Source: Euplotes cf. woodruffi 2 WChen-2021 (Eukaryota > Ciliophora > Spirotrichea > Euplotida > Euplotidae). From it: 28,723 nucleotides of DNA. The notes below the pieces were generated by a model. That model ran no database searches, was not told the origin of the DNA, and worked only from the letters and a program-made list of their open reading frames with translations. The DNA is taken from NCBI GenBank assembly GCA_021441665.1, contig JAGYYN010022304.1, positions 1-28,723 of the forward strand, read 5' to 3'. This document shows, one piece after another, positions 2,568 to 26,581 of the stretch (position 1 is the first letter of the stretch; every line of letters starts with the position of its first letter). The translations under genes were made by a program, and so were the position numbers.

Positions 2568-4392
2568 ATGGTAAGTCTTTTTCAACACTGCACTTAATTT
2601 GCTTATAAAATCGGATTTTTAGGCTTTATAAATATTCATATTAATTTATAAAAAAATAGGAAAGTAAAAACGATGAAAATTACGACGTTGACTTTGGAGC
2701 GTATGAAATCGTTAATATGGACAACCAAGAAGAGTTCAGTAAGTAGCAAAAAATAATTATACTTAATAGACGCACATTTTAGCGTTCCAAAAGAACGCAA
2801 GAAAGGAAATATCGTAAAGAACTTCATTAGCAATTCGCTAAAGAAAGGCGCAAACTTGTTAAACAGCAAAATCAAAAAGCGAAAGCATAAAGTAGCTAAT
2901 GTGCATAATATCGAAGAATCTAAAGACATCGAATTCGTTACTAAAAATATTAAATTTGAGCCGCGGCCTGGAGTACAAGATGATGTGGAGGAAGATCTTG
3001 ATAACTACGACATTTACCAAAATTTAACTAAAAAAATCAGCAACGAACTAAAAATTTACGAAGCTCAGCCTGATGAATTTGAAGAATTCGAATTAACTGA
3101 AGTCCAGAAACAAAAGAGATCGACAAGTGAAAATAAATACATCAGCGATGATGATTTTGAAGAACTCACCGATCAAAACTATATGTTCACCGAAGACGAA
3201 TGGAGTCAGCTTCTTAATGAAAATAAGAAAAAACTCACTGAAGATGAGAAAAATCGAATGGTATTATAATTAAAAAAAATTTTGATTTTTTAAGCTAAAT
3301 TTGACCTTTTCACTATAAATTTTGATTCTTTAAAAATTACTTTGTTATTTTATTTAAAAACTGTAGTTTTATAAATAAAAAAATATCTAAAAATTTGACG
3401 TTGAGAATAATTATTTTTTAGGTCTTTAGCATTCGAGTTGGACTTCCGGCAAACTTAAGGGGAAGAATCTGGGAGTATATCGTAAAGGTGAACAAATACA
3501 ACTCAGATCCAGAGGAAAGCTATGAGTACTACTTGAACGCTCCGTGCACTGACGGCTCGGATAACGTAATCAGCAAGGATATTATGAGAACCTTTCCCCA
3601 TGATAAAGCTCATAAAGAAAACTGGAATTCTGGGAATAATAAGCTATATAATGTGCTAAAGGCCTATTCGAGCTATGATCCTGAAGTTAGGTACTGCCAA
3701 GGGATGAACTTCATCGTGTTCATATTCCTCAAGAATTTAGACCAAGACCCGGTATGACTTTTACTCGCAAATATTTTGTTTCGAGATCGTCTGTGCATTA
3801 AAACAGCAATTTTTATTTATAAAAAGCAGATTTGATAAACAAAATAAAATTTGGAAAATATTAATAAAATACGATATGATTTTGTTTATCTAAAAAATTA
3901 CTTAAATCAAAATTTATAGGAAAGAGCATTCTGGCTACTCGTTGCGATGATGAAGGAGAAATAAATGGAATCAAGTTTACCAGCTAGATACTCCAAAGCT
4001 GATTGAGCTGCTTAAATAAGCTCAAAAAGAAGATGAAAAAGGAAATAGAAGACATTTACGACCTACTGATTCTTAACGAGCTGCCCATTGAAGGAGTTTT
4101 CGCTCCTTACTTCTTGACTTTATTCCTGTACTCAACTCCGATCAAAATAGCTGAGAGGATCATCGATTGATTTCTTTACAGTGGAGAAAAGTTCATGCTT
4201 GACATGACGATCCAAATGCTGAAGATGAAGAGGACAGAAATACTAAAGTTCAACAACTACGATACAGCTCCATTTGATCTACAGGTATATCTCAGCAAGA
4301 AAATGGTGATAGAATGTTGCTCTGACAAGACGATCAAATCAATTCTGAACATGAGCAAGCTTAGTGAAGGCAGAAGCTTATTTCACTTTTAA
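2568..4392 (+). CDS. TBC-domain protein (Rab GTPase-activating protein)
   Basis: TBC proteins speed GTP hydrolysis by Rab GTPases in membrane traffic. The model gives 457 residues with codon phase closing exactly: ATG 2568, introns 2571-2659, 2739-2769, 3261-3421 and 3752-3919, stop TAA 4390-4392. Residues 1-190 are an acidic, unrecognised leader. The TBC domain follows: VGLPANLRGRIWEYI, the arginine finger in ISKDIMRTFP (about R247), the glutamine finger in RYCQGMNF (about Q284), then ERAFWLLVAMM, LNELPIEGVFAPYFLTLF and IAERIID-C-FLYSGEKF, where C is TGA 4168-4170. Both catalytic fingers are present, so it should be an active GAP. Two +1 shifts, AAA-TAA at 3962 and AAA-TAA at 4017, are needed inside the conserved domain. 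Only with both does the reading run from ERAFW through KWNQVY and LDTPKLIELL to the LNELPIEG motif. The Rab target cannot be told from the sequence. Confidence 0.88.
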
Positions 4393-4714: not shown

Positions 4715-7700
4715 ATGAAAGACTTTTTCAAAAAGTACGCGAATACCCCACAAATCTGCAATATTTTTAGCCTCTCATTTCAAAGCTATTTTAATAACGA
4801 TTTGCATAATTTAGGCGAAAATTGAAAGAAAGGCAAGAGCAGGAGGAGGAGCATGAGTGGGAGTCGAAGTTAACTGACAAGAAATGAAAAGTATACCTCC
4901 AAATGATATCGCCCACCAGCTACGCAGTCACTTTCGATAAATAGATACTTTGATAAGCTCAAAGCAGCCATTAAAGCTTCGAAATTATGAAGATTTAATG
5001 ATAAAAACGTCTGGTATGCTCTTTATATTTTAGCTTTTTAATTCATACTAAATTATGCTGATTTTAGATGGGAGTTCGACGATGGAAAACAAGACCAGCT
5101 CATTCAATTTATTTCAAAGTCAGAACTACACATGTCTTGCTTTTGCTGATAATTATTAAAAGTTTTGGTCGAATCATAAAAATTAGTATAAAAACTCAAA
5201 ATTAAATATCTCAACCAAAGGTTCTAATTATTATTCATGATTTATACTATTTATCGAGGAATATTGGTTGTATAAAAATTATATTAAAAAGTAATCATTA
5301 TTTATTTGAGAAATCAATAATTCCTGCAAGTAACGAAGGTTTGTATATAGCTACTTAATCCAGATAAAATCAGGGATCCGAATTGAGCATGAAGTATGCG
5401 ACCAGTATGCTAAACTCATGGACAAATACAGCATTCCTTTCTCAAGAGACCCGTAAGCTTGTTTTTATTGTCTTTACACCCCGTGCGACCGTTGTTTAGG
5501 AGAGAATACTGGTACAAGTACAGAAAGGACAACGACCTCGAGTACTCCGTCCAAGACCTCAAAGTCGACACTTACAAGCGCTTGCTTCGATACCAAAAGG
5601 AAGGTGTCGAATTCGCTATTAAAAACTACGGCAGGATCCTGCTGGGAGATGAAATGGGAGTCGGAAAGACCCTTCAGGGAATATGCATTGCTTATATATA
5701 CAAAAGTGACTGGCCGCTAGTCATTTTGTGACCGTCAGCACTGAAACTTGTCTGGAGGGACGAAATACTGAAATGGATCAGCGATGTGAACAAGGATGAT
5801 ATCCATATACTGAATACTTCGAAAGATAAATTTATCGAAGGCAAAAATGTAATAATACAATCAAATCTAACCGTGTGTTTAGATCTACATAATTTCATAT
5901 GAAATCGCGAAAAAGAAGTAAATCAGAAATTGAAGATATCGACTTCAAAGTGTGTCTGTGAGATGAAGCTCACGCACTGAAGTCTGAGACAAGCCAAAGG
6001 TCGATTGAACTCGTTCCTGTGCTACAAAAAATCAAGCGCATTGTGTTGATTTCTGGAACGCCTGTTTTAGCAAGACCGTCGGAGCTATTTAATTTAGTGA
6101 AAATATTGAGGCCTGACATCTTCAACAGTTTCAAAATATTCGCAAAATTGTACTGTGATCCGAAGCAAAAACAAATAAGAATGGGGAAGCATTTAAGGAC
6201 CGTAACTGAGTACAAAGGATCGACGAACTCACAAGAGCTGAATTACTGGCTTTCTAAGCACATTATGATTAGAAGACTGAAAAAGGACGTTCTTAAAGAA
6301 CTTCCTGAAAAACTCAGAATTAAATTACCTGTTGAAGTCAACCCAAAATTTAAGAAAGAACTTGAAAAATTGATGAAGCTTAGCGAAGACATTAAATAAA
6401 AATGTGGAGGAGAAAGAAGGAACCAAAATGAACTTTAATCAACTTATCGCCAGAAAGAATAATCTCGAAGCCAATATTTTAGAAGGAGATTCAACCAATC
6501 CGATTATGGAGCTTTACCTCAAAACGGGGCTTGCAAAGGTCCAGGCTGGATTTGAGTTCCTTGAAACATTACTCGATGCTCAAATTAAATTCCTGCTATT
6601 CGCACATCATTTAGCTGTGCTTGATGAATACGAAGAAAAATTGATTAAAAAGAAAATTGAATACATACGGATTGATGGAAGTACAGCTGAAAAGAAATAA
6701 ACACGAAAATGTTAAGTCATTTCAAACAAACTCAAAAATAAAAGTAGCAGTTCTTTCTATCACAGCAGCTTATCAAGGTAATACATTAATGCTAATTGCT
6801 TTATAAAATTAAAATATCATCAAAATATTATAAATGAATAATCTTGTATTTAGGAATCACTCTGACTGAAGCATCAGTAGTTGTGTTTGCTGAGTACTAC
6901 TGGACTCCAGGTATAATCATTCAAGCAGAAGACAGAGCTCATCGAGTAGGACAAAAGCAATCAGTAACAGTCTACTACCTGCACGCAGATCAAAAGACAA
7001 TCGATTCGTCGATGGCAAAGTAGCTAATTATCTTTATTATCTCATATTTAATGTTCGCTATAAAAACTCTTATAATTTAACTGTTTTTTTATATTAAAAA
7101 CATAAAATTTTAAATAAATTCTGATTATTTCTAACATCAACTAGATATATTGAAGAAAAAGACCGTGTGACTTCAAGTGTGCTAAACAACGCGACTTCTG
7201 AGTACCAAGTCACCAAAGTTTCAGTTGAGGAAGTGAAAGACAGGATCGAAAGGACTTCAAAATAATGTAAAAATAAAAATACTCACCTTTAGGCTTCTGC
7301 TTACGAAAAGCAAAAGAAGACTGAAAGGCTGCAGGACAAGTCAAGGCTGTTTTACTACCTCAATAATTCAGATAAAAAGCCTGTGCCAAGTAATTACAAC
7401 TCATAGCTTATCAATTATAGAACGCGTGACTGAGTGAGTCCCAGAAGACATCGAAGACTCAAGTTCTTCAGACCTCGACGACGCTGAAGATCACCAATCT
7501 CAGCTCGCTGTTGAAGAAACAAAGGAAAAAATCGAAATCAACCCGACATTTAAAGAGTTCTTTGACAGTGTTAAAAAAGGAGATAAGAAATTTAAGCAAA
7601 TCCCGAGGTTGAGTTTATTTTCATTCAAAATCAAGATATTTTACTCCAAATTAATTTGCTAAAAAAGCGCATGCTTGAAAATAAAAAAATAATTCTTTTT

Positions 7701-19248: not shown

Positions 19249-19768
19249 TTATCTAAAAGAGGTGATTCTGAGTTGTAAAGCCTTTCCGCCCATAGTTAAA
19301 GGATCAAACACGCCTGTATTTCTCCATTCTTTCATCGCTCGTTGGTAAAGATCAGGTCTTCCATATACAAATGTCAGATGTTCAGCTCCAGAGTAGTCTC
19401 ATCTGATTCTAAAAATGCGTGTGCCGCCGACTCCTAGTAAATGTTGAGTACAGTTATATTATTTTTGTGATTATTCTGCATTGAGCTATATAAAAGCAGA
19501 AATAGTGAAAAGCAGCTGTATTTTCATCAGGAATGTACTTGGTTTCAGCAATGGACCAGATCGAGTTAAAGTGCTCTTTCTCCTCTGGTATCAGCCACTT
19601 AAAGCCAGTCGTTGGGTTCTCATACAACTCGATCTCGATGATGTCTCCGATCTGGCACAGAGTCGTATCGTACTGTCCGTCGTCGAGGCTTTCGAATTTG
19701 AACTTCAGGTTAGTTGCCAACGACTGTGCTACGAATAAGAGGGATATAATTGCGACTCACGCTTTCAT
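19249..19768 (-). CDS. secreted chagasin-family (I42) protease inhibitor, copy A, split by a candidate IES
   Basis: Chagasin-type inhibitors block papain-like cysteine proteases with three loops. ATG 19768-19766 opens a signal peptide (MKACVAIISLLFVAQSLA, Cys as TGA). Loop 1 is NPTTGFKW (51-58), the Gly loop is LGVGGTR (89-92) and the third loop reads YGRPDL (114-116), with Asp where the family usually has Trp. The frame is broken between loops 1 and 2. Removing one 70-bp TA-bounded piece (19449-19518) restores a continuous 149-residue protein ending at TAA 19251-19249, nearly the length of copy B (150), with the two loops equally spaced in both. The alternative, a +1 shift at ATA-TAA, would insert about 23 unrelated residues. 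No GT..AG intron fits. Copy B lies 405 bp upstream on the same strand, so a tandem duplication is likely. Confidence 0.85.
19449..19518 (-). other. candidate internal eliminated sequence (IES), 70 bp
   Basis: The piece is flanked by TA direct repeats (19449-19450 and 19519-19520). Its two ends, each read inward, are TACAGTTA and TACAGCTG. Both fit TAYAGYNR, the IES-end consensus known from Paramecium and related to Tc1/mariner ends; the published Euplotes crassus consensus (TATRGCRN) is similar but not identical. Precise excision leaving one TA makes codons GAA AAT ACT CAA CAT and restores the chagasin reading frame. The length is not a multiple of three. It carries no gene. Confidence 0.75.
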
Positions 19769-20173: not shown

Positions 20174-20626
20174 TTAAGCAGAGGACACAATGTCCAGTTG
20201 AACTGCATTTCCTTCCATAATGCTTGCATCGAAGTTTCCTGTTGTATTATATGCAGCCATAGTTTGATTGTAAAGCCAAGGTCTTCCATAAACAAAAGTG
20301 ACAGTCTCATTTCCAGTGTCGTTGATGTCAAGTACAAAAGTTTTTGTGCCTCCGACTCCAACCATGCCGCGAGGACTTGGATCTGCGCTATAAGTGCTCG
20401 AGTTCAGCGACCAGATGAGGTTATATCCTTCAATCTCCTCCGGGATCATCCACTGATATCCAGTTGTCGGATTTTCACTAAAACTGAGTTGAATCTTGTC
20501 TCCTTTCTTGCAAGTCTGCGTTTCTTTCGTGCCGTTATCAGTCGAGCTAAAGCTATGCACAATTGTGCTTGACTTCGCCACCCAAACGAGTGCGATGAGT
20601 AGTAAAACTGTGACAAAAGGTTTCAT
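20174..20626 (-). CDS. secreted chagasin-family (I42) protease inhibitor, copy B
   Basis: The gene is a single uninterrupted frame of 150 residues. I chose the ATG at 20626-20624 because it opens a clear signal peptide (MKPFVTVLLLIALVWVAKSS) and follows an A-rich leader; the frame is open farther upstream, but without signal-like sequence. All three inhibitory loops are present and canonical: NPTTGYQW (52-59), VGVGGTKTF (90-93) and YGRPW (113-117). Several NxS/T sites (for example NGT, NSS, NET, NTT) suggest glycosylation in the secretory pathway. It should inhibit papain-like (C1) proteases, either its own lysosomal or secreted cathepsins or those of prey; the sequence does not say which. 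There is no intron, no +1 shift and no IES, unlike its tandem partner. Confidence 0.92.
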   Translation of the reverse strand: MKPFVTVLLLIALVWVAKSSTIVHSFSSTDNGTKETQTCKKGDKIQLSFSENPTTGYQWMIPEEIEGYNLIWSLNSSTYSADPSPRGMVGVGGTKTFVLDINDTGNETVTFVYGRPWLYNQTMAAYNTTGNFDASIMEGNAVQLDIVSSA

Positions 20627-24977: not shown

Positions 24978-26446
24978 ATGAACTACATAGCGAGGAACTG
25001 GCAGCAGGCTCACTTTAAAATTATCGATGCTGAATACAGTCTGAAGCTTGCAGCACAACTGGCAGGGTGACTAATAAAGAATGATATTGCCAGAGCGTCA
25101 AAATCTGCACACGTAGCCCATCGAGGAATGGAAATGACTCCGAATGAGTTTGAGCTCGTCAATATCAATCACCAACGGGATGAGAGAATGGGGGTTGTCG
25201 ATGCATATACAGAAAAATATAGAACTCTTGAAAAGCAAATTGATATGTATGACAAGGCAAAATAACGAATTATTAGAAGAAATTCAGTCTGAAAGAGAAT
25301 ACTTCAATAATCTCTGTGCGATAAGAGTGAACTACCCGATTCAAGATGCCTCTTTAATTCCTGAATTTAAAAACAAAGTTGGACTCCTCACCCACCTGAC
25401 ATCAAGTAAAAAGACACTATACTGCCATGTGATTAAGAACCCCGAGCTGTACATTCCAAAGTCACAGAAAAACTATTTAAACAAAGTATTGCTGATACAA
25501 GGTAAAACAGGCGAATTAGAGTACAGATGTCATCCTGATTTGCGAAAATCTATCAAACTCAAAACTGAAATTGAATACACAGTCGATAACTTTCACAGCC
25601 AAAAGCACACAATAACAAAGTTGGTTAATTTAAACAACATTGACAGTCTGTATACAAACGAAGAGTTCATTCCGAACATCATTGAAAAGCTGAAGATTAT
25701 ATCGCTGTACAAGTGCCTCGAGAAGGAAACCAATGGCATCGAGTACTTCAATACCAAAGAAGATAAATAAAGGCGAAGTTAAAGCTCCGAAAAGAGAAGT
25801 CAAAAAGTATAAAGAGTACCACACTAAATTCACACGAGAGCAGTACGAACAGGTCAAACGAGTCAAGGGCTCTTGCAGCGAGCCGCTCGACTATTTAAAA
25901 ATAGCTGACCTCAAAGTTGACCTTTCCTATGACGTCCACATCGCACTAAAATTTGTTATTGAGCTTTGTGAATTCGATGAAAATTTACCACCACAAGATA
26001 TCGAAGAAAGCATTGAGGATAAAACAGACTCAGAGCCGATTATTAAAGCTCTCTCGATGATGCAAATTATCGAGTCTTGAGTTTGAAGAGACAACACAGA
26101 TGAAATAATATCATTAGACTTACTATCGATTCTCAGCCAGAGGTACATGTCGTATCTGCTAAACAAGCTGATCCATTCTGAGATGGGGATTGCTTACGAG
26201 TTCCACTACAGCGAACCGTGCTACTTCAAATACCATATCAACCAGTTTTTCCCAAATAAAGGAGGTGACGTTTCGCTTGTGAAGAGAATAACGGTCATAA
26301 TCATCGAGGTAGACTGATTTAAAATGGTCATCAATGTCAAGACGAAGTCGAACAACGAGTCTGAGTACGTCGGGACCTTCACCACGAAAGAAGTGAAGTA
26401 CTTGACTAAGGATCTCTCGCAAGGGCTGATTTTAAGCTTGACTTAA
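24978..26446 (+). CDS. unrecognised protein, about 490 residues, two +1 shifts
   Basis: From ATG 24978 the frame needs +1 shifts at AAA-TAA (25263) and AAA-TAA (25768) and ends at TAA 26444-26446; phases close. TGA codons are Cys. The N-terminal 100 residues are helical (WQQAHFKIIDAEYSLKLAAQ, YRTLEKQIDMYDKAK). The middle looks globular (EREYFNNLCAIRVNYPIQDA, LNKVLLIQGKTGELEY). A Lys/Glu linker follows, then a helical and beta-rich C-terminal part (LDLLSILSQRYMSYLLNKL, ITVIIIEVD). The order of a helical bundle followed by a folded C-terminal half faintly recalls Mediator subunit Med17, but no motif proves it and I do not assign it. An upstream exon at 24714-24750 (reading FVKILLSTAQRL) joins in phase through an intron 24751-24968, and may tie this unit to the preceding one. 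Confidence 0.7.
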
Positions 26447-26581
26447 AGTTTGTTTAATTATTCACTAAAATCCAGGCTGTTTAATAATTCCACACGATTC
26501 CAATCCCGAATTTAATTCGCAAGTGTTAGTCTCAGGTTGCTTATTGACTATAAAAAATTAATATTATTTCAGAGTGTTTCA

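Follow-up and report, generated by a model that had tools for sequence, protein, structure and literature searches.

The coding frame of a chagasin (I42) gene contains a 70-bp insert, which we interpret, with a probability of roughly 0.83, as a short TA-bounded internal eliminated sequence (IES) that lies in the micronuclear (germline) genome of a euplotid ciliate and is predicted to be excised. Removable DNA of the IES kind is well known in this group of ciliates, and the insert is most likely a clean new example of a TA-bounded IES, a phenomenon in itself already familiar. It is a tidy single-gene example because a tandem paralogue pins its boundary closely. All positions below refer to the window, the whole stretch of 28,723 nucleotides that was analysed.

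Results

The interrupted gene, its insert and its tandem copy comprise the following features.

19249..19768, minus strand: chagasin (I42) gene carrying the insert, with a product of 149 aa once this is removed and TGA as cysteine at codon 4 (PF09394, 55.7 bits; T. cruzi chagasin, E = 2e-10)
19449..19518 (equivalent to 19451-19520), minus strand: putative IES of 70 bp, one TA copy included, with TA at both ends, TAYAGYNR ends, a noncoding codon score and exact restoration of the I42 protein on removal
19519..19520, strand not assigned: second TA copy, seen in the sequence, with a single TA left post-removal
19454..19459, minus strand: ATA-TAA inside the insert, where the uninterrupted frame stops and the sole candidate site for a +1 frameshift
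20174..20626, minus strand: intact tandem chagasin paralogue of 150 aa without the insert (PF09394, 67.8 bits; ungapped alignment from ENPTTG onward)

Read without interruption, the frame runs from an ATG through a hydrophobic N-terminus, an NPTTGFKW loop and 21 codons of the insert to a TAA after 104 residues. The earlier note had placed the insert between TA direct repeats and described its ends as TAYAGYNR, and on both points it was right: the TA copies lie at 19449-19450 and 19519-19520, 70 bp apart from TA to TA, and the ends read inward, TACAGTTA on the plus strand and TACAGCTG on the minus strand, match this consensus with 0 mismatches each. Past TACAG the two ends differ from each other. 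Against the TATRGCRN consensus of E. crassus they show 3 and 2 mismatches, this consensus being that of another species from which single elements may deviate. The insert has no coding capacity, and a search for further copies in the window gave nothing beyond chance matches of 9-15 bp. Its G+C content of 29% lies above that of intergenic DNA (19%) and below that of coding sequence (38%), which we counted against the IES reading. On either side of the insert the frame is open, and codon use is coding-like over 83 and 63 codons.

Deletion of the 70 bp gives GAAAATACTCAACAT and an open reading frame of 149 aa. The product lengths and the equal spacing of the loops proposed in the earlier note agree with our analysis, as the 149-aa protein and the 150-aa product of the intact paralogue, which lies upstream at a distance of about 400 bp, share ~44% identity and align free of gaps from ENPTTG to the C-terminus. 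The repaired protein exceeds the PF09394 cut-off of 27.2 bits, with its NPTTG and GVGGT loops intact, and its alignment with T. cruzi chagasin spans the junction with a sole gap of two residues. Precise removal also scored best among the products compared, ahead of a 64-bp TA deletion (50.7 bits), read-through by frameshifting (45.7), an intron combined with a frameshift (43.1) and the two halves alone (26.2 and 20.2). The third loop (19360-19370, minus strand) reads RPD, and not the RPW of the intact tandem copy, and the interrupted copy may therefore be under relaxed constraint. That removal corrects the frame, as had been claimed, holds for the 70-bp deletion, but this is not the sole frame-correcting route, because a +1 ribosomal frameshift at the internal ATA-TAA also works.

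We estimated how often such ends would arise by chance. Among 21 frame-restoring TA-bounded deletions in the gene region, only the 70-bp one has TAYAGYNR at both ends, and when all 30,920 segments of 26-200 bp that lie between two TAs anywhere in the window are considered, the same insert is again the single one with paired TAYAGYNR ends. Locally matched shuffles contained 0.47 TAYAGYNR pairs of up to 120 bp per window, with at least one pair in 73 of 200 shuffles, and so the motif pair alone is little proof. The significance lies rather in the coincidence of the TAYAGYNR pair with a gene interruption, for which ~0.001 cases are expected by chance. TACAGYNR itself occurs 19 times in the whole window against 8.6 expected, a count reached in 0 of 100 shuffles, and these occurrences mostly lack a paired, IES-like arrangement.

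No second IES from which an end consensus for the species could be derived was recognisable in the window. Other TAYAGYNR pairs (for example 6682-7062 and 26207-26552) were rejected, as they overlap conserved helicase or other coding sequence and occur at about chance frequency. A relaxed search of the window returned 69 candidates; permuted motifs returned 22-122, so this search carried no signal. The chromosome-breakage motif HATTGAA was scattered through the window, often within coding sequence, and was uninformative.

The host is a euplotid. TGA codes for cysteine, as in VIL-C-PSALKLVW of an SNF2 helicase, and two neighbouring genes anchored by conserved domains are complete only with TGA as cysteine, a total of five GT-AG introns (34-168 bp) and +1 frameshifts.

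3422-4392, plus strand: RabGAP-TBC gene, interrupted by a single GT-AG intron of 168 bp and by +1 frameshifts at two AAA-TAA sites 18 codons apart (reconstructed protein, 162.8 bits)
5349-7300, plus strand: SNF2-family helicase gene, continuous once four GT-AG introns of 34, 47, 76 and 125 bp are removed and the frame is shifted by +1 at three sites, one AAG-TAA and two AAA-TAA (reconstructed protein, 139.7 bits)

Near the 3' end of the SNF2 gene a fourth AAA-TAA may be a shift or part of an intron. All interruptions examined in these two genes are GT-AG introns or AAA/AAG-TAA frameshifts, and the 70-bp insert is therefore of another type. Elsewhere, at 1990-2063 on the plus strand, the coding frame of a gene without a recognised domain appears to switch near 2052-2063, where no intron, stop or frameshift motif is evident. 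The 28.7-kb contig carries many genes on both strands and is free of C4A4 repeats; it fits micronuclear (germline) DNA, because the macronuclear chromosomes of Euplotes are gene-sized (PMC9797194). No relatives were found in the genome-contig and viral-contig collections searched.

Discussion

Frame restoration could also be achieved with no removal at all, an explanation that the earlier note overlooked. A ribosome shifting +1 at ATA-TAA-C within the insert would enter the frame of the GVGGT loop and produce a 172-aa protein in which 23 additional residues separate the NPTTG loop from the GVGGT loop. Such shifts are common at WWW-TAR stops in Euplotes, occur in neighbouring genes of the same contig, and would leave a product that still scores 45.7 bits against PF09394. 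In E. octocarinatus, where the general motif is WWW-TAR, 3,700 of 32,353 transcripts were found to require a +1 shift (PMC4759687). ATA-TAA matches this loose motif, but the 21 codons preceding it are not coding-like: in the frame concerned their log-odds average -0.46 per codon, a value lower than in any of the 3,232 coding windows scored with leave-one-gene-out training (median 0.73), and the synonymous part of the score alone falls at the 1.5th percentile. Moreover, AAA-TAR is the site of 3,489 of the 3,700 shifts in E. octocarinatus, and ATA is absent from the other slippery motifs named in the text of that report (PMC4759687), while the shifts in our two domain-anchored neighbour genes occur at AAA or AAG before TAA. 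The frameshifted product also scores 10 bits lower than that of precise removal, its 23 residues are absent from both the paralogue and the T. cruzi homologue, and the paired TA ends would have to be a coincidence. We therefore rank frameshifting low, because of the codon scores of the insert and the AAA/AAG-TAA context of the neighbouring shifts, and give it little credence.

That the piece is removed only at the RNA level, either as a non-canonical intron or through a GT-AG intron together with a frameshift, appears to be the least probable of the explanations considered. The neighbouring SNF2 gene has introns down to 34 bp, and interconversion of introns and IESs is on record in spirotrichs (PMC9797194), but no GT-AG intron alone restores the frame, and all five combinations of a GT-AG intron with a frameshift require a shift at ATA-TAA, the most domain-preserving of them reaching only 43.1 bits. 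The introns examined in the neighbour genes are GT-AG in five of five cases. A GC-AG intron of 172 bp was rejected as it would delete conserved residues, and AT-AC options were rejected as being without support. It is also very unlikely that the gene is a pseudogene, a decaying tandem duplicate in which a transposon remnant or mutation was never removed. An intact paralogue so close by and the RPD loop would be consistent with such decay; against it stand the coding-like codon use of the open flanks, the intact NPTTG and GVGGT loops and the lack of any other lesion in the gene.

A short IES in a euplotid germline gene, as the earlier note had proposed, thus remains the best-supported reading, although that note had not weighed +1 frameshifting. 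It agrees with TGA coding for cysteine, AAA-TAA shifts, a 28.7-kb contig of many genes that lacks C4A4 repeats, an insert that is noncoding and TA-bounded, exact repair and the lack of a frame-restoring GT-AG intron; excision itself we infer from these features. Under the IES reading, the chagasin frame of the germline copy stops at TAA after 104 codons, and in the new macronucleus formed after mating the DNA would be cut at both TA copies, and rejoining of the flanks would leave one TA between them. The junction would then read AAT ACT and the gene would encode the 149-residue I42 cysteine-protease inhibitor. Removal would take place at the level of DNA, and by analogy cleavage may resemble that of the Tec elements and short IESs of E. 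crassus, for which the same excision mechanism has been reported, with excision circles at whose junction 10 bp of partly heteroduplex DNA lie between two TAs (PMC3464196).

Short IESs with TA pointers are established in Euplotes (PMC10901763, PMC9797194, PMC7599177). As a rule the IESs of E. crassus and E. vannus have TA pointers (PMC9797194, PMC10901763); in E. vannus, where 24,674 IESs have been identified, their median length is 172 bp and the pointers are mostly TA (PMC10901763). Like the short IESs of these species, the insert is TA-bounded, intragenic and AT-rich and would leave one TA on removal; its ends, however, depart from the E. crassus consensus TATRGCRN at 2 and 3 positions. With Paramecium IESs it shares TA boundaries and TAYAGYNR at both ends, but its host belongs to a different ciliate class with another genetic code. 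Excision products in Euplotes are also unlike those of Paramecium, whose end consensus was weak as first reported (PMC3464196). The resemblance to the Tc1/mariner Tec transposons of E. crassus, with a TA target duplication and short inverted ends, is likewise partial, as the insert is only 70 bp, is without coding capacity and has ends that do not match past TACAG. Both the Paramecium and the E. crassus end consensuses are said to resemble Tc1/mariner ends (PMC7599177), and the TACAG ends of the insert may have descended from an element of this type. The repaired protein, for its part, matches T. cruzi chagasin and the I42 family in its domain score and in its NPTTG and GVGGT loops, and departs from the family in carrying RPD instead of RPW.

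The ends of this one insert are Paramecium-like, as the earlier note had described them, but this is a match of a single element to averaged consensuses, with no second IES recognisable in the window. It is doubtful that the IESs of the source euplotid as a class carry TAYAGYNR ends in place of the TATRGCRN ends of E. crassus. If they did, this would point to a different Tc1/mariner family as founder, or to an end preference that has been conserved between ciliate classes. Frame-correcting inserts in euplotids should be tested against +1 frameshifting before being called IESs, and were the whole species to use TAYAGYNR ends, this would bear on a shared transposon origin of IES end signals in distant ciliates.
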